DNA from: Candidatus Cloacimonadota bacterium
GTDB lineage: Bacteria; Cloacimonadota; Cloacimonadia; Cloacimonadales; TCS61
Length of the DNA stretch: 11,535 nt
NCBI GenBank assembly: GCA_014382915.1
Contig: JACNIV010000331.1
Coordinates: 1 to 11,535, forward strand
Reading direction: 5' to 3'
The translations under genes and the position numbers were made by a program. Each line of letters opens with the position of its first letter. Within the stretch, counting starts at the first letter, position 1. Below the pieces are notes generated by a model, which saw only the letters and a program-made list of their open reading frames with translations, was not told the origin of the DNA and searched no databases. Shown one piece after another: positions 4,734 to 11,535 of this stretch.

Positions 4734-5578
4734 CAAGATTAGGAAAAGGATTAGAAGCATTAATTAGTTCGGGACCGGAATCAGTAGATAAAACTACAGG
4801 TATAACCACTTTAAAGATAGATCATATCAAGCCAAACAGATTTCAACCCCGTAAAAAGTTTAAACAGGAAAAACTGCAAGAACTGGCAAACTCATTGAAA
4901 GAAAACGGCATTATACAACCTATTATCGTAACTAAAAGAGATGAATCACAATATGAACTGGTAGCCGGTCAACGCAGACTGGAAGCCGCTAAATTAGCCG
5001 GCTTTGACGAAATACCGGTAATAATTCGAAGTGTTTCTTTAAAAGAACAACTGCAATTTGCCATCATAGAAAATGTACAGAGAGAAGATCTGACAGCCAT
5101 TGAAGAAGCACAGGCTTATCAACAATTGAATGAGGAATTCAATCTGACCCACGCCCAGATTTCCGAGATAGTAGGTAAAGATAGAGCAACTATCACCAAC
5201 CTGATAAGATTGCTCAAATTAAACGATAATATTCAAAAAATGATCCTGGATGAAAAGCTTTCTCCCGGGCATGCTAGAGCTATTTTGCAGGTAGAAGATC
5301 AATTCCACGAAGATTTTGCTAACCTGATCATACGAAACGGTCTTTCTGTCCGCAAAACGGAAATGGAAGCAAAACGTATAAAAGAATCCGGTTTGTTTGT
5401 AAAACCTAAAGCAGAAATACACATAATTCCCGAATTAGCCGAACATGAAAAAATACTGAAAAATCGTTATAAAACAAAAGTGAAGATCACTGATAAAAAT
5501 AATAAAGGCAGAATTACATTTTATTATACGGACAAAGTTGAACTGGATAAACTCCTAAATAAGTTGGAAAATGAATAA
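4730..5578 (+). CDS. parB: Chromosome-partitioning protein ParB (Spo0J), CTP clamp
   Basis: ParB binds parS sites and slides as a CTP-gated clamp. The 282-residue protein opens with [10 protein letters not shown], the ParA-contact segment. The CTP-binding N domain includes [11 protein letters not shown] (34-44), [16 protein letters not shown] (76-91) and [19 protein letters not shown] (112-130). A helix-turn-helix follows ([23 protein letters not shown], about 140-162), then a C-terminal dimerisation part ending in [10 protein letters not shown]. The usual GERR motif reads GQRR (Q81), noted as a finding. The start overlaps parA by 4 nt and the end overlaps the M23 peptidase gene by 8 nt. No full palindromic parS is present in the window. 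Confidence 0.95.
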
Positions 5579-6236
5579 AATTCTACTTGCAGTAATTCTG
5601 ATTTTGTTAATAATTGTGGTGATTGTTCTACCAAAGTATTTCAAAATTCAAAACAAAGTAGAAAAACAACAGCAGGAACTTGATATTGCCACCAGGTACA
5701 TTCAGCAATTGAATCAGAAATTGAAATCCATTCCCCAGGAAAAGCTAAAACAAACAAGTGATCCGGATAAGATACGTGACCTGCTGAACGGTTACTTGAA
5801 AGAGAAAAGAATTGAAGACAAAATACCTGCAATCGATAAAATATCACAGCAGAAAAATGAAAAAAGATTCATTCCCGATCTTATTCCTGTGCAGAGAAAT
5901 TTTGCGCTCAGTCAGAAATTCTCTGAGAAGCACAAAGCTGTAGATTTTGCTGCTCCTACCGGCACGGAAGTAGTTGCCTCTGCCGCTGGTGAGATCCTTA
6001 GTGTTTATTATGATAAATATCTGGGAAATGTAATGATCATTGATCATCTTAATGAGTATGCTACACTATATGCACATCTTGCCACATCTATCTATGAAGC
6101 AAAAACCTTTGTTGAAAAAGGGGAAACTATTGCTTTGGTAGGAAATACGGGAAACAGCACTGCTCCACACCTGCATTTTGAAATCCTGGTTAATGGAGAA
6201 AATATCGATCCGGAAAAAATTCTTAATATAAAGTGA
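5571..6236 (+). CDS. Membrane-anchored M23 peptidoglycan endopeptidase, partner of the bactofilin
   Basis: This 221-residue protein has an N-terminal transmembrane helix (about 4-20). A Gln/Lys-rich coiled-coil linker follows (about 24-60), and then a periplasmic M23 domain (about 105-215). Zinc ligands H121, D125 (HKAVD) and H202, and catalytic H169 (YAHL) and H200 (HLHFE), are all present, so it should cleave peptide cross-links. The domain is near the N-terminal membrane helix, with no LysM, unlike the peptidase at 1955-2872. It overlaps parB by 8 nt and ends 7 bp before a bactofilin gene. M23-bactofilin pairs are known cell-shape modules (LmdC-BacA; Csd1-CcmA in Helicobacter), so the bactofilin probably localises this enzyme. 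Confidence 0.9.
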   Translation: MNKILLAVILILLIIVVIVLPKYFKIQNKVEKQQQELDIATRYIQQLNQKLKSIPQEKLKQTSDPDKIRDLLNGYLKEKRIEDKIPAIDKISQQKNEKRFIPDLIPVQRNFALSQKFSEKHKAVDFAAPTGTEVVASAAGEILSVYYDKYLGNVMIIDHLNEYATLYAHLATSIYEAKTFVEKGETIALVGNTGNSTAPHLHFEILVNGENIDPEKILNIK

Positions 6237-6243
6237 GGAAAAT

Positions 6244-6648
6244 ATGAACAGAAACAGAAAAGTAGAACTCTCTACCATTGTTGGTAAGGGAAGTAAAGTA
6301 AAAGGTACTTTATTTGTTGAAGGTGGTGTTCGCATTGATGGAAAAGTAGAAGGTGTCATAGAATCGCACGGTTTTGTAACTATTGGTCTATCCGGGGTTG
6401 CCAATGCAAACATTAAAGCGGATGAGTGTCTGGTTTCCGGTAAAGTAGTGGGAAATATAGTCTGTGAGGATGCACTGGAGTTGGATAAAACCGCTGATCT
6501 TACTGGAGATATTATTGCCAAAGTCCTGAAGATTCATACAGGAGCTGTATTCAATGGCAATAGTTCTATGAAATCAGAGATCAAATCATCTTCTTTAAGA
6601 AAAATAATCCCGGTAAAGAATGTGGAAGAAACAAAAGATACTGAATAA
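6244..6648 (+). CDS. Bactofilin (polymer-forming cytoskeletal protein)
   Basis: Bactofilins form nucleotide-free filaments on the inner face of the membrane and place cell-wall enzymes. The 134-residue protein has a short polar N-terminus, a right-handed beta-helix core (about 9-105) with regular G-x-V/I turns (IVGKGSKVKGTLFVEGGV, IDGKVEGVIES, VSGKVVGNI, LTGDIIA), and a charged tail. Length and pattern fit family DUF583/bactofilin. GAGGA (6235-6239) overlapping the stop of the peptidase gene supports ATG 6244. It overlaps the following atpZ-like gene by 29 nt in another frame. The upstream M23 gene is its likely partner. Confidence 0.93.
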   Translation: MNRNRKVELSTIVGKGSKVKGTLFVEGGVRIDGKVEGVIESHGFVTIGLSGVANANIKADECLVSGKVVGNIVCEDALELDKTADLTGDIIAKVLKIHTGAVFNGNSSMKSEIKSSSLRKIIPVKNVEETKDTE

Positions 6649-6850
6649 AGAACTGTTGAAGTACTTTGGCCTGATAACACAATTAGGACTTTCTGTTATA
6701 ACATCTATCCTGATCTTTACTTTTGGCTTCATATACCTGGATAGAAAGCTTCATACTGAAAGCAAACTGATAATAATTGGTGTGATATTGGGAGTTATTG
6801 CAGGCATAGTGGCAGCATATAGATTGATTCGAAGATTTTATGAAAAATAA
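6620..6850 (+). CDS. AtpZ/AtpI-like small membrane protein of the ATP synthase operon
   Basis: The 76-residue protein has two transmembrane helices (about 19-37 and 50-66) joined by a short polar loop (YLDRKLHTES), and a basic end (RRFYEK). This size and G-x-x-x-G-rich second helix (IIGVILGVIAGIVAAY) match the AtpZ-like family found directly before atpI/atpB in many bacteria. A role in ion supply or in rotor assembly has been proposed for these families. The ATG lies inside the end of the bactofilin gene; no clear Shine-Dalgarno is seen, and an in-frame TTG at 6656 is an alternative that would shorten the overlap. Confidence 0.75.
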   Translation: MWKKQKILNKELLKYFGLITQLGLSVITSILIFTFGFIYLDRKLHTESKLIIIGVILGVIAGIVAAYRLIRRFYEK

Positions 6851-6866
6851 AAACTACTAACTAATT

Positions 6867-7244
6867 GTGGAAAATAGAAAATACGTTAAACGAATTCTGG
6901 TCATTATTCTCTTGACAAACATACTTGCAGCTTTGAGTTTGCCGTTGTTTTTCAGGGAAGCCCTGGGTTGGATTTTGGGTTCTACAGTCAGTGCAATAAA
7001 TTTTTTCTGGCTGGCTCATAATGTGAAAATGAGCTTAGATTTGCAACCAACGAAATCCAAACTGAACGCTGTGAAGGGAACTTACTTGCGATTATTGTTC
7101 CTTTTGATTTATTCGGTTCTGATCTTAAATTTTGTTAAACCGAATATTATAAGTTTCGGATTAGGGCTGTTGGCAGCTCAGATGGTGATATACCTGAATG
7201 AATTTGTAAAAAACTTGAAAAGAAGCAGGCTTTTCAGAGGGTAG
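6867..7244 (+). CDS. atpI: ATP synthase subunit I (AtpI-like)
   Basis: The product has 125 residues and four predicted transmembrane helices: about 9-28, 31-49, 74-91 and 94-112. It lies between the atpZ-like gene and atpB, the usual place of atpI. AtpI acts as a chaperone for c-ring assembly in several bacteria and was shown to matter for a Na+ c-ring in Acetobacterium woodii, which is relevant given the unusual c subunits downstream. The start is GTG at 6867 without a clear Shine-Dalgarno, so the exact start is uncertain. The stop is 1 bp from the atpB ATG. Confidence 0.75.
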   Translation: MENRKYVKRILVIILLTNILAALSLPLFFREALGWILGSTVSAINFFWLAHNVKMSLDLQPTKSKLNAVKGTYLRLLFLLIYSVLILNFVKPNIISFGLGLLAAQMVIYLNEFVKNLKRSRLFRG

Positions 7245-7245
7245 A

Positions 7246-8157
7246 ATGACGAAGAAAAAAAGCCCGATGCTAAGAATAATTTTGATATTTTTCGTTATCG
7301 AAATTATACTGGTTTTCTTGTCCGGGAATTTCAGTAAGCAACTGGAAATAGGATTTGAACACGGAAAATTCCGCATCAGGCATGTAGAAACAGAGTATAA
7401 CCTGCAGGAAAAAATAACCGAAGAATTCCAGATAGATGAGTATTATAAACAACATGGTGAAACACCCGAAATTTATGGAAGTGAAAAAATCTATAATACT
7501 TTCAAAAACATATTTGGTGTGGAAGGTGCTGTTGGAACATTCCAACTGCTGCGTATGCTGCTGATCGTAGATATTGTGCTTCTTCTCACAGCTCTTTTTA
7601 TCAGGAAAAACCTGGCTCGCCGCCCTGCAAAATCGCAAATCATTTTTGAATTAATATATACTTCTCTGGAAGAATTTGTTTCCGAAACCCTGGGAGAGGA
7701 TAAGGCTTATTATACGCCTTATATAGTTACGCTCTTCCTGTTCATCTGGGTTTGTAATATGGTTGGCATGATCCCGATTCCCGGATTTATGGAGCCAACC
7801 AGAAATTTGAATGTCCCGCTTAGCTTGGGATTTATGGTCGTAGTGGTGGTTCATTTTTCTGCTATTAAATTTAAAGGTGCCTGGAATCACCTGCAAAATT
7901 ATATTAATCCGGTAAAAAATCCCTTATTCCTTTTGGATATTGTGGGAGAAGTATCTAAAGTTGTTTCGATCTCTTTCCGTCTTTTTGGAAATATTCTGGG
8001 TGGAGCGATCATTATCCTGGTTGTATCTTCCCTGGTGAGTTTCGTTGTCTTCCCGATAGGTTTGACTTTATTCTTTGGAATATTTGTAGGAACGATACAG
8101 GCATTTGTTTTTACAATGCTGGCATTAACATATATCAGTGTGGAAATAACGGAGTAA
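7246..8157 (+). CDS. atpB: F-type ATP synthase subunit a
   Basis: Subunit a forms the stator half-channels against the c-ring. The 303-residue protein carries the essential arginine R245 in SISFRLFGNILGG, with E235 ten residues before it and Q286 in the last helix (IQAFVFTML). NPVKNPLFLLDIVGEVSK and EPTRNLNVPLSL are typical family stretches. It is longer than the roughly 240-270 residues common elsewhere: residues 1-100 add an N-terminal hydrophobic helix (about 9-26) and a charged soluble segment of about 70 residues before the canonical first helix (101-119). Bacteroidota-type a subunits also have long N-termini. AGAGGG precedes the ATG. Confidence 0.96.
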   Translation: MTKKKSPMLRIILIFFVIEIILVFLSGNFSKQLEIGFEHGKFRIRHVETEYNLQEKITEEFQIDEYYKQHGETPEIYGSEKIYNTFKNIFGVEGAVGTFQLLRMLLIVDIVLLLTALFIRKNLARRPAKSQIIFELIYTSLEEFVSETLGEDKAYYTPYIVTLFLFIWVCNMVGMIPIPGFMEPTRNLNVPLSLGFMVVVVVHFSAIKFKGAWNHLQNYINPVKNPLFLLDIVGEVSKVVSISFRLFGNILGGAIIILVVSSLVSFVVFPIGLTLFFGIFVGTIQAFVFTMLALTYISVEITE

Positions 8158-8160
8158 GAA

Positions 8161-8913
8161 ATGGCACTTTCGGTTGAGCATATTCAAATTGCAGCGTACC
8201 TGGGAGCAGGAATCTGCGTCGGAATTGGTGCTGTTACCACAGGAATTGGATCCGGTATAATTGCCGGAGAAGGTGCTTATGGAATCGTTAAGCAGCCCAA
8301 AGCAAATGAGCAAATATTCAGGACAATGCTGATAGGTCAGGCAGCTGCTCAAACTGCCGGTATTTTTGCTCTTGTAATTTCGATGCTGCTTATTTACGGC
8401 AGAGCAGATGCTCCTGAAGGCGGGTGGTTCAAAGCTGCAGCATATTTAGCTGCGGGCCTTGCTATGGGACTGGGTTCTGTAGGTCCATCTCTGGGAGCAG
8501 GATATGCAGGCGGGCAAGCTTGTAAATCTGTAGCAAGAATGCCTAAACACGGTAATGCGATCATGGGGAATATGCTTATCGGTCAGGCTCTGTCGCAAAC
8601 TTCTGCCATTTTTGCACTTGTTGTTGCTTTCCTGCTTATATATTCTGTACCCAATCAAGCAGCAGACATATCAATGGGCAGGATCATTGTTAAATCGGTT
8701 GCCTTGATCGCAGCAGGACTCTCAATTGGATTTGGTACATTAGGCCCAGGAACAGGTATTGGTTATGTGGCAGGAAAAGCCAGTGATATGATGGGAAGAT
8801 TTCCTAATGAAAAGCCCAAGATAATGAGAACAATGTTTTTGGGTGCGGCTGTTTCGGAATCGACAGCGATCTACTCACTGGTCGTGGCATTTTTATTAAT
8901 TTTCGCATTATAA
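8161..8913 (+). CDS. atpE: Triple-hairpin F-type ATP synthase c subunit with one ion-binding glutamate
   Basis: This 250-residue rotor subunit is a fusion of three c-type hairpins (about residues 9-79, 91-161 and 177-249), giving six membrane helices, against about 80 residues for a normal c. Each hairpin has the glycine-rich first helix (GAGICVGIGA, AAGLAMGLGS, AAGLSIGFGT), a polar loop with a basic-x-Pro (KQPK, RMPK, RFPN) and a second helix. The ion carboxylate is kept only in hairpin 3 (E233 in VSESTAIYSL). Hairpins 1 and 2 have Q64 (AAAQTAGIF) and Q146 (ALSQTSAIF) instead. The neighbouring ligand position on the first helices is S31, A113 and I200. It follows atpB by 3 bp with GGAG 6 nt before the ATG. 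Fused c subunits with lost carboxylates are known from V/A-type rotors and the A. woodii c1. No frameshift or stop is seen, so it looks functional. Confidence 0.93.
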   Translation: MALSVEHIQIAAYLGAGICVGIGAVTTGIGSGIIAGEGAYGIVKQPKANEQIFRTMLIGQAAAQTAGIFALVISMLLIYGRADAPEGGWFKAAAYLAAGLAMGLGSVGPSLGAGYAGGQACKSVARMPKHGNAIMGNMLIGQALSQTSAIFALVVAFLLIYSVPNQAADISMGRIIVKSVALIAAGLSIGFGTLGPGTGIGYVAGKASDMMGRFPNEKPKIMRTMFLGAAVSESTAIYSLVVAFLLIFAL

Positions 8914-8928
8914 TTTATGTAATAAATT

Positions 8929-8934
8929 GGAGGA
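8929..8934 (+). promoter_or_regulatory. Strong Shine-Dalgarno of the single-hairpin c gene
   Basis: GGAGGA ends 3 nt before ATG 8938 in an otherwise AT-only spacer. It is the best ribosome binding site in the cluster and stronger than the GGAG ahead of the triple-hairpin gene. This fits a need for more copies of the single-hairpin c per complex. Confidence 0.6.
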
Positions 8935-8937
8935 ATC

Positions 8938-9189
8938 ATGAATTTAACTTTAGCACAAGGAATCGTAAAAGCTTCTGCACTTCTGGGTGCCGGTCTATGT
9001 ATGGGAATGGGGGCTTTGGGACCTGGAGTCGGCGAAGGTTTCGTAGCAGGAAAAGCCTGTGAAGGTATTGCTCGCTCTCCCGAAAATGCAAGCCTTATCA
9101 CCAGGACGATGCTAGTAGGTCAGGCTGTATCTGAATCTACAGGTATTTATTCTCTGGTTATTGCTCTTCTGTTAATATTTTCTACGTAA
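8938..9189 (+). CDS. atpE: Single-hairpin F-type ATP synthase c subunit, Na+-type motif
   Basis: The product has 83 residues, two membrane helices and the conserved loop ARSPEN. The second helix carries V64, E66, S67, T68 and Y71 in AVSESTGIYSLVIALLL. This matches the sodium-binding set of the Ilyobacter tartaricus c (V63, E65, S66, T67, Y70). At the position of Ilyobacter Q32 there is E33 (GVGEG), as in the two-carboxylate Na+ motif described for Fusobacterium nucleatum. It is therefore probably a Na+-translocating rotor subunit. It lies 24 bp after the triple-hairpin gene and is most similar to hairpin 3 of that protein, suggesting origin by duplication. A 63-bp gap separates it from atpF. 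Confidence 0.95.
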   Translation: MNLTLAQGIVKASALLGAGLCMGMGALGPGVGEGFVAGKACEGIARSPENASLITRTMLVGQAVSESTGIYSLVIALLLIFST

Positions 9190-9203
9190 AAGAAGGCAAA
9201 ACA

Positions 9204-9227
9204 GGAAGGGAATAAAAACTCACTTCC
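9204..9227 (+). other. Weak stem-loop between the c and b genes
   Basis: GGAAG (9204-9208) and CTTCC (9223-9227) pair, with a few further pairs inside across mismatches and an A-rich loop. It sits in the 63-bp gap after the single c gene, the largest gap within the atp genes. No T-run follows, so it is not an intrinsic terminator. It could slow mRNA decay after atpE, but the stem is short and may be chance. Confidence 0.25.
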
Positions 9228-9252
9228 AAGCGAACACTAAACTGGAGATTTT

Positions 9253-9735
9253 ATGATAAGTATAAATTATGCTTTCATTCTGGTAATATTGAATTTTATT
9301 CTATTGCTAATTGTCTTGAATAAAATTCTTTATAAACCAATTAAGAAATTTTTGATAGAGCGTCAGAAAAAGATAGCTTCCGACATGGATAATGCAGAAG
9401 CTTCCAAACTGGAAGCTGAAAAACTAGTTCAGAAAAAGGAAGACGAACTGAAAGCATCGGCAGAAGATGTTAGAAAAATGAAAAAAGCTGCCAATCGAGA
9501 TGCTGCAAATCAGGCAGCAGATATTGTGAAAAATGCCAAAGATCAGGAAAAGAAAATTCTGAAGGATACAGAAGAACAACTGGTTCACGAAAAGAAAAAG
9601 GCGATGAAAGAGATCGAAAGTGACCTTACAGAAATGGTCACGAATCTTTCTGCGAAGTTCCTTTCTGAAAAAGTGAATGATAAAAATGACAGGAACTTAA
9701 TAAAGAAAATGCTTACAGAAAGAGAGAATAAGTGA
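9253..9735 (+). CDS. atpF: F-type ATP synthase subunit b
   Basis: Subunit b is the peripheral stalk. The 160-residue protein starts with one membrane helix (about 4-26, MISINYAFILVILNFILLLIV) and then LYKPIKKFLIERQKKI, the standard junction. A long charged, Ala/Lys/Glu-rich helical coiled coil follows (about 37-130). The C-terminus (LSAKFLSEKVND) contacts the delta subunit. Length is normal. Only one b gene is seen, so the stalk is presumably a homodimer. GGAGA lies shortly before the ATG. The stop overlaps the atpH start by 4 nt (GTGA). Confidence 0.95.
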   Translation: MISINYAFILVILNFILLLIVLNKILYKPIKKFLIERQKKIASDMDNAEASKLEAEKLVQKKEDELKASAEDVRKMKKAANRDAANQAADIVKNAKDQEKKILKDTEEQLVHEKKKAMKEIESDLTEMVTNLSAKFLSEKVNDKNDRNLIKKMLTERENK

Positions 9736-10268
9736 GAAACAAACTTATTGCTCAACGCTATTCTAAAGCAATTATTTTGAACATGGAGAAGAGACTACTG
9801 GATTCCCTTCTTGAAGATACTAATTCCTTAAAAACGATTTTTTCTCAAGATCCTTCTTTGATAAAATCTTTTGATTCATTTTTATATCCTCTTAAGAAAC
9901 GTATAGATTTAGCACTGGATGTGGCTGATAAACTTAATAATAAAAATATCTGGAAAAATCTTTTTCGAATATTGATAAAAAAACATAGATTCACGATCAT
10001 CCCGGATATCCTCATTGAATTAGAAGAAAAAATTCTCGATAGTAGAAATCAGATCAAAGTTTCACTGAAGATCGCACGTGAACAAACCGATAAAATCCTG
10101 AACGATATAGCAGAAGTGATAAAAGATATTTTAAAAAAGGATGTAATTTTGGATGTTAAAATAGATTCTTCAATAATCGGGGGATTTATTGCTCAAACAA
10201 ATTCCATATTAATCGACGGATCTATCAAAAACAGTTTAGATAGATTAGTAAAAATTAAAAATAAATGA
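9732..10268 (+). CDS. atpH: F-type ATP synthase subunit delta
   Basis: Delta (OSCP) joins the b stalk to the top of the alpha3-beta3 head. The 178-residue protein begins [13 protein letters not shown], the family's N-terminal helix. It ends with the OSCP signature [20 protein letters not shown] followed by IKNSLDRL. It is diverged and Lys/Ile-rich in the middle, as is common for this subunit. The start is GTG inside the end of atpF; AGAGAG upstream is a possible ribosome binding site. It ends 7 bp before atpA. Confidence 0.93.
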
Positions 10269-10275
10269 GGACAGT

Positions 10276-11535
10276 ATGAAAATACAACCAGATGAAATAA
10301 GTGCAATACTAAAAGATAAAATCAATGATTTTAAATTTGAGATTGATATTGCTGAAACCGGAAAAGTAGTACAGGTTGGTGATGGAATTGCCCGTATTTA
10401 TGGAATGGATAATGTAATGGCGGGAGAAATGATCGAATTTCCCGGCGGTGTTGTGGGCATGGCTTTGAACCTGGAAGAAGATAATGTTGGGTGCATTATT
10501 TTTGGTGAAACCAGGAAGATCAAAGAAGGTGATATTGCCAAAAGAACCAAGAAAATTCTTCAGGTTCCGGTGGGTGAAGCAATGCTGGGACGTGTGGTGA
10601 ATTCACTTGGACAACCCATAGATGGTAAAGGTGAGATCAAAGCTAAAGAATATAAACCCGTCGAAAGGAAAGCCCTGGGTGTTATTCAAAGACAACCTGT
10701 GAAAGAACCTCTTCAGACAGGATTAAAAGCTATTGACTCTATGATACCGATTGGCAGAGGGCAGAGGGAACTTATTATTGGTGACAGACAGACGGGGAAA
10801 ACAGCTATTGCGATCGACACGATTATTAACCAGAAAGACACTGATGTGGTCTGTATTTATGTTGCGATTGGACAGAAAAAATCGTCTGTTGCAAAAATCG
10901 TGAAAATATTGGAATATCACGGAGTAATGGATTATACGATTATTGTTATGGCATCTGCTTCAGAATCAGCATCACTGCAATATCTGGCACCTTATACCGG
11001 ATGTACAATGGGTGAGTATTTCAGAGATATCAGCAAACATGCACTCATCATTTACGACGATCTTTCCAAACATGCTGTTTCCTACCGTGAATTATCACTT
11101 CTTCTAAGAAGGCCTCCCGGACGTGAAGCCTATCCCGGTGATGTTTTTTATCTGCATTCGCGTCTTTTAGAAAGAGCTTCCAAGCTGAATGAAGAACTGG
11201 GTGGAGGATCCTTAACTGCACTCCCTATTATTGAAACACAGGCTGATGACCTCACAGCCTATATTCCTACAAACGTTATTTCGATTACCGACGGACAGAT
11301 ATTTCTGAATAGCCGTTTATTCTATTCGGGAGTAAGACCTGCAATCAATGCCGGACTTTCGGTATCTCGTGTAGGCGGAAGCGCTCAGATAAAAGCAATG
11401 AGAAGCGTTATCGGTCAGTTACGTGTGGATCTGGCTCAGTATGCTGAACTGGAAGCTTTTGCCAAGTTCGGTTCTGAGCTTGATAAAGCTACACAAGCTC
11501 AGCTTCTCAGGGGTGAAAGGTTGGTCGAAATACTT
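10276..11535 (+). CDS. atpA: F-type ATP synthase subunit alpha (partial, cut by window end)
   Basis: Alpha is the non-catalytic nucleotide-binding subunit of the F1 head. The first 420 codons are present with no stop; family proteins have about 500 residues. The start ATG has GAGGA 5 nt upstream. The sequence shows the beta-barrel domain ([13 protein letters not shown]), the Walker A GDRQTGKT (169-176), the Walker [21 protein letters not shown], the signature [20 protein letters not shown] and the arginine finger R365 in [11 protein letters not shown]. No missing key residue is seen. In most operons gamma and then beta follow, beyond the window. Confidence 0.97.

Follow-up and report, generated by a model that had tools for sequence, protein, structure and literature searches.

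What kind of rotor is encoded by an F-type ATP synthase operon that carries two unlike c-subunit genes side by side? The question is raised by the window analysed here, i.e. the whole stretch of 11,535 nucleotides (positions 1 to 11,535 of contig JACNIV010000331.1) from a Candidatus Cloacimonadota metagenome-assembled genome of 1.98 Mb that is 77.8% complete. The initial annotation had proposed a mixed rotor, in which a c protein of three fused hairpins (c3 hereafter) joins a single-hairpin c protein (c1). Taken as a whole, this interpretation is partly supported by our analysis. Judging from the sequences, we think it likely that c3 and c1 form one mixed F-type ring, with c1 as the major ion carrier and c3 as a site-poor sector.

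The genes of the window follow the order atpZ-atpI-atpB-c3-c1-atpF-atpH-atpA (Table 1), and the Pfam and TIGR00962 matches bear out the F-type setting (a, c, c, b, delta, alpha) that had been read from the sequence. The product of atpB contains an SFRLFGN motif with R245, which we take to be the stator arginine; the motif is found in 67 of the 70 loci with a subunit-a-like frame and is absent in L051, L093 and L094. The atpD gene was found by profile on contig C326 of the same assembly, where the flanking frames, judged by eye without a search, look like the end of atpG and like atpC. The F-type assignment is based on the PF00137 hairpins of both c genes, on the adjacent genes for a, b, delta and alpha, and on the beta gene on C326. 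No PF00137 protein other than c3 and c1 was found in this 77.8% complete assembly. In the same genome (78% complete), the search for an A-type catalytic subunit A gave weak cross-matches only, the best of them (E 7.4e-34) at the atpD locus. We also considered an A/V-type origin of the operon and rejected it, since the neighbours are F-type and the best family models are those of F-type c.

Table 1. Features of the ATP synthase operon in the window.
Feature	Position	Strand	Evidence
atpZ-like (ATPase_gene1, PF09527)	6620..6850	+	Pfam E 7.3e-12
atpI (PF03899)	6867..7244	+	Pfam E 1.7e-9
atpB, stator subunit a, 303 aa	7246..8157	+	Pfam E 5.2e-44
c3, three fused hairpins, 250 aa	8161..8913	+	ORF; Pfam ATP-synt_C x3, E 9.4e-45
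Spacer from c3 to c1, containing the strong Shine-Dalgarno sequence of c1, TTGGAGGA	8914..8937	+	
c1, single-hairpin c subunit, 83 aa	8938..9189	+	ORF; Pfam ATP-synt_C x1, E 6.8e-18
atpF, subunit b	9253..9735	+	Pfam E 9e-19
atpH, subunit delta	9732..10268	+	Pfam E 2.5e-28
atpA, subunit alpha, cut by the contig end	10276..11535	+	TIGR00962 E 4.5e-226

Two further genes of the window deserve mention. In the region 5571-6645, a bactofilin gene lies directly upstream of atpZ; among relatives it holds this place in 19 of 70 loci, many of which start downstream of that point, and it is often preceded by an M23 peptidase gene. The linkage between this cytoskeletal gene and the ATP-synthase operon is conserved. 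At positions 88-735, the window encodes a DUF6642 protein (E 9.7e-28) without a PADLOC match.

Both c proteins are as first described. The open reading frame, the three ATP-synt_C stretches and the site column confirm a 250-residue c protein with three hairpins and a single Glu (E233), and the frame and the Pfam match confirm the adjoining 83-residue single-hairpin protein with E66. In c3, the ion-site positions of hairpins H1, H2 and H3 are occupied by Q64, Q146 and E233 (codons CAA, CAA and GAA), and the equivalents of position 33 are S31, A113 and I200. The outer-helix carboxylate is present in c1 and, within c3, in the third hairpin only. The c1 protein carries a two-carboxylate set, E33 and E66, together with S67, T68 and Y71; with E33, E66 and S67 its site is probably Na+-binding. 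E233 is without its usual Na+ partner, I200 standing at that position, and this isoleucine would make H3 a poor Na+ site. AlphaFold, supplied with 53 aligned sequences, models c3 as three hairpins (pLDDT 94.9, pTM 0.89). Pairwise identities among H1, H2, H3 and c1 are 28-54%, from 23/81 for H1-H3 to 44/81 for H3-c1.

We then asked how widespread the pair is. A search of 124 Cloacimonadota genomes with c3 gave matches in 72. Two of these (G023 and G041) were excluded because their c is a divergent single-hairpin one within a cluster of another gene order, and the fused c gene or pieces of it remain in 70 of the 124 genomes, so that the arrangement proves conserved in relatives, a point on which the initial annotation had made its proposal depend. 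Among the 70, three hairpins stand in one frame in 67, including three loci cut at contig ends (L064, L070 and L089) and one that leaves the frame near its end (L051). The other three are a two-hairpin form (G123, L090), a broken frame (G108, L091) and a contig-end piece (G089, L092). The two-hairpin protein of L090 has Glu in both hairpins and is followed by a single c. All 18 named loci that bear the triple protein belong to Cloacimonadota.

Gene order is just as constant. The succession c3-c1-atpF is found in all 65 loci with both c genes on one contig, and in 63 of them atpB comes immediately before c3; in the remaining two the contig stops at c3. In the five remaining loci c1 is not beside c3: L064, L067 and L070 lie at contig ends, and G106 and G121 keep both genes on separate contigs (L082/L096 and L085/L095, respectively). 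In G106, the c3 cluster extends as far as atpA, and neither c1 nor atpF nor atpH was recognised in the interval, so that the operon looks split. An atpD gene passes the NCBI score cut-off in 69 of the 124 genomes, or 67 once G023 and G041 are dropped. A multi-hairpin c is present in 66 of these 67, counting the broken frame of G108 and the two hairpins of G123; in the sole exception (G060), the contig ends inside atpA. The c3 gene is phylum-wide wherever the F-type enzyme is kept, and no local oddity.

Other rotary ATPases were met during this survey. Within family f2, c3 occurs in none of the 49 genomes, and 45 of the 49 carry an A/V-type catalytic subunit (best E-values from 2.1e-89 to 7.3e-165, with no score reaching the curated cut-off): the c3-type F operon is replaced there by an A/V-type enzyme, a swap of rotary ATPase inside one order. 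Two members of this family, G041 (L093) and G023 (L094), possess an F-type cluster in which a beta-like gene precedes atpB and the one c is single and divergent; it is presumably similar to the "alternate" (N-type) ATPase. In four genomes outside this family (G071, G095, G109 and G122; 57-80% complete), c3 was not found and no F-type atpD passed the cut-off. Finally, a same-genus genome possesses a second atpD-like gene (G074:C79:2807-4069, 669 bits), perhaps from a second F-type enzyme or from contamination.

The number of ion-site carboxylates in c3 is far from constant. Written as the H1-H2-H3 residues, the 67 proteins fall into EEE (8), EQE (25), QQE (22, the window's own code), EQQ (6), QQQ (2), GQE (2), QQR (1, L051, which departs from the frame near its end) and EQ- (1, the cut L070). 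The initial statement that each triple subunit removes two ion sites holds for the QQE type of the window but not generally, since relatives keep from three carboxylates to none. H2 is without a carboxylate in 59/67 proteins, and H3 keeps its Glu in 57/67. Non-Glu letters at the three sites are Gln in 92 of 95 cases, and in the QQQ proteins the codons are CAA or CAG; the frequency of Gln is weak evidence because Gln lies one base from Glu.

It is the single c that hardly varies: Glu66 is present in 65/65 c1 proteins, residue 67 is Ser in 64 and Thr in one, and position 33 is Glu in 63 and Gln in two. In H1, the pairs formed by position 33 and the site are E/E (32), S/Q (25), V/E (7), T/G (2) and gap/E (1), and this hairpin mostly loses both carboxylates together. 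In H3, position 33 is Ile in 63 proteins and Val in four. Position 71 is Phe in H1 and H2 (67/67 each) and Tyr in H3 (65/67) and c1 (65/65). A basic residue is found in the hairpin loop of H1 in 61/67, of H2 in 67/67 and of H3 in 66/67. The glycine motif of H1 is partly lost, its position 28 being Thr in 34, Ser in 15, Gly in 13 and Ala in four of the 67 proteins.

Acetogens already provide an example of an F-type ring in which a fused, site-poor c is mixed with single ones. The c1 chain of Acetobacterium woodii (PDB 4BEM) is the top solved chain by sequence for both c proteins of the window, the score of the window c1 being one to which the chain's two hairpins add up, and by fold for c3. The PDB entry holds one c1 chain and nine c2 chains, i.e. 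a mixed 9:1 ring. As in the Na+ F1Fo of A. woodii and Clostridium aceticum, a multi-hairpin c precedes a single c in a bacterial F-type operon, and as in A. woodii, Gln replaces Glu in the dead hairpin. The window also has fewer carboxylates than hairpins in its multi-hairpin c, as expected of a system of the A. woodii kind; the eight of 67 c3 proteins that keep all three fall outside this description. However, A. woodii c1 has two hairpins and one carboxylate whereas the window c3 has three hairpins, and the dead hairpins are the first two in the window (Q, Q, E) and the second in A. woodii (E then Q). In addition, the Na+ partner position of the third hairpin holds Ile instead of Gln/Glu, and the carboxylates per c3 vary from three to none across Cloacimonadota, unlike in A. 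woodii c1. The c3 hairpins are also more diverged, with 28-42% identity versus 58% in C. aceticum c1 according to the accessible part of PMC7911925.

For the window c1, a second likeness is with the Na+ c11 ring of Fusobacterium nucleatum (PDB 3ZK1, E 7.1e-22 over residues 1-82), which has the same Glu pair and Ser in the accessible part of its description (PMC3692424). The window c1 has Glu at the equivalents of positions 32 and 65, with Ser/Thr beside the second, and both c1 and the H1 pair, where kept, look like these two-carboxylate sites. That part of PMC3692424 mentions no fused c in F. nucleatum, a difference from the window. Chains of at least three fused c hairpins are known from archaeal A/V-type enzymes, with three in Methanocaldococcus jannaschii and 13 in Methanopyrus kandleri (PMC2359735, accessible part). 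The window c3 is like them in this respect but differs in its F-type neighbours and in its best models, which are those of F-type c. Na+ coupling of the F-type enzyme has been inferred for related genera, as far as the accessible part of PMC8542988 goes. The window's own genome contains two Rnf/Nqr-family genes and a membrane pyrophosphatase; a Na+-decarboxylase beta subunit was not found in it at 78% completeness. In the open-licence literature, as far as its texts are accessible, no triple-hairpin c is described for a bacterial F-type enzyme, most subscription journals lying outside this search. As far as the literature searched shows, the triple form with a graded number of sites is new.

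How might such a rotor work? We propose that c1, with its two-carboxylate and probably Na+-binding site, would be the main ion-carrying part, and that c3 would take the place of three neighbouring hairpins at one or few ring positions. In the window, c3 would be a sector of two Gln hairpins plus a Glu233 that lacks the usual Na+ partner. With the glycine-rich inner helix mostly kept and the basic-x-Pro loop nearly always, the fit of the ring to F1 and subunit a would be preserved. A full turn would still yield three ATP, with fewer ions carried. For a ring assumed to have 11 hairpins including one c3, and with each carboxylate counted as a site (that of H3 included), the EEE, EQE, QQE and QQQ types would have 11, 10, 9 and 8 carboxylates, respectively. 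The window type would then carry 9 ions per turn instead of 11, and the ions per ATP would be 3.67, 3.33, 3.00 and 2.67 in the same order; at an assumed 50 kJ/mol, the minimum ion-motive force would be 141, 155, 173 and 194 mV. Fewer ions per ATP would thus raise the yield of ATP per ion, at the price of a higher threshold force. The three adjacent dead hairpins of a QQQ c3, more than in A. woodii c1, might stall the rotor.

The history of the sites bears on whether their loss matters. We built a tree from 63 c3+c1 rows with the site columns removed. Four loci were omitted from it: L051, whose c3 frame departs towards the end, L070 and L089, both truncated at a contig boundary, and L087, on account of its very long branch. 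On it, the minimum number of carboxylate state changes is one for H1, four for H2 and five for H3; the corresponding counts on a quick tree made earlier from 67 rows were 1, 3 and 6. The count carries no direction. For H3 (Glu in 55 rows, non-Glu in 8) losses are the simplest reading, and in H2 (Glu in 8, non-Glu in 55) Glu may have been regained. The H1 site was lost once. Meanwhile, c3 is under purifying selection (dN/dS 0.013-0.089; 13 of the 15 pairs gave a value), and c1 is more constrained (0 to 0.047 in 15 pairs). The QQQ protein of L040 gave 0.084 and 0.088 against two neighbours; the two comparisons involving L045, the second QQQ protein, reached saturation, and several further pairs have dS above 1, which makes the ratios rough. 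The initial annotation had called for a tree of the individual hairpins. In the one we built from 20 genomes, the sequences of H1, H2, H3 and c1 separate into four groups, one for each (SH-aLRT 99, 95, 99 and 87), and thus the triplication predates the sampled phylum.

Repeated state changes at H2 and H3 also fit neutral drift of a part that has another role. In particular, c3 could sit in the ring as a structural starter or size ruler that nucleates assembly, its site loss being nearly neutral and the change of ratio a by-product. In favour of this explanation, the carboxylate of H3 has changed state five times or more and that of H2 four times or more, in a protein that is still constrained and retains the loop and much of the glycine motif. 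We nevertheless hold it unlikely: the H1 site has never come back in the window clade (26 of 63 rows, one change), and the predominance of Gln among the non-Glu letters is expected if the pocket must be neutral and polar at the stator, a point limited by the single base that separates Gln from Glu.

Expression signals give a hint of the relative amounts of the two proteins. In 60 genomes with both values, the Shine-Dalgarno sequence of c1 (mostly GGAGGA) is stronger than that of c3 in 53 and not stronger in seven, with medians of -9.3 versus -6.1 kcal/mol; the start codons were partly chosen by Shine-Dalgarno energy, for both genes alike. Start-site strength being no more than a proxy, this suggests that more c1 than c3 is made. 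The difference may have no other cause than the overlap between the atpB stop and the region around the c3 start. Within 6000-11535, promoter-like and terminator-like sites are not more numerous than in shuffled sequences; there is one promoter-like match inside c3 (8234-8261) and one terminator-like match inside its end (8866-8885).

Separate genes, start signals of unequal strength and this terminator-like match, itself not above chance, could be taken to mean that the cell builds two alternative rotors under different conditions, one ring of c3 (e.g. 4 x 3 = 12 hairpins) and one of c1. We regard this as very improbable given that both genes occupy a constant position in one operon in 65/65 loci with both on one contig, that the signals do not exceed shuffles, and that a c3-only ring would be without any carboxylate in the two QQQ genomes. 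It is equally hard to credit that c3 stays outside the rotor and serves only to assemble the c1 ring or to inhibit it, for site-free proteins do exist (QQQ, 2/67) but H1 has the full two-carboxylate pair in 32/67, H3 its Glu in 57/67, and the nearest solved relative is a ring member. An assembly artefact, a pseudogene or chance is ruled out by the presence in 70/124 genomes, by purifying selection and by the codons read directly.

Beyond Cloacimonadota, a search with a 405-residue homologue gave, among the matches listed, 119 new c proteins with four (82), five (27) or six (10) hairpins (P0121-P0239; P0126, P0205 and P0147 are examples). Organisms are named for 14 of the 120 listed rows, and all are Desulfobacterota-type sulfate reducers, Deltaproteobacteria or Pseudomonadota/Proteobacteria; names among the matches listed include Desulfosarcina variabilis, Desulfonema ishimotonii and Desulfarculaceae. 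Like c3, these proteins belong to the PF00137 family and mostly have Gln at the site of the middle hairpins. A loose pattern reads E-Q-Q-E in 64 of the 85 four-hairpin proteins (the 82 plus three from another search), and an alignment of 26 five-hairpin proteins shows E65, Q145, Q226 and Q307 in every row and E388 in nearly every one. Unlike c3, they have four to six hairpins, and a partner single c beside them is not established. Their gene neighbourhood was sought among viral contigs, where no relative turned up, and among plasmids, where there was no match.

Their first hairpins group with H1 of Cloacimonadota in two trees (SH-aLRT 95.8, and 90 in a tree of 85 columns with many open forks), and these sequence groupings suggest a common origin. 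Trees in which the Cloacimonadota hairpins (p-AU 0.142) or the c3 hairpins (p-AU 0.080) are forced together are not rejected, nor is an independent triplication in Cloacimonadota, separate from the 4-6-hairpin proteins.

The ion-to-ATP ratio is usually thought to vary with ring size. Returning to the mixed ring of c1 and c3, we tentatively suggest, as a possibility rather than a probability, that a built-in blank sector passes the stator at each turn and that the ratio is set by point mutations in c3 at constant ring size, and has been repeatedly tuned in this way. If so, the neighbouring blank hairpins would number two in the window and three in the QQQ genomes, and c3 and the 4-6-hairpin c proteins would form one family of partly blank F-type rotors. 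The passage of two or three adjacent blank hairpins by the stator is the harder mechanical question. One phylum seems to hold a graded series, from three carboxylates to none in the fused sector with an unchanging single c. With this series it can be tested what number of adjacent dead hairpins is tolerated in an F-type rotor, and whether anaerobes adjust the ion cost of ATP via site loss.
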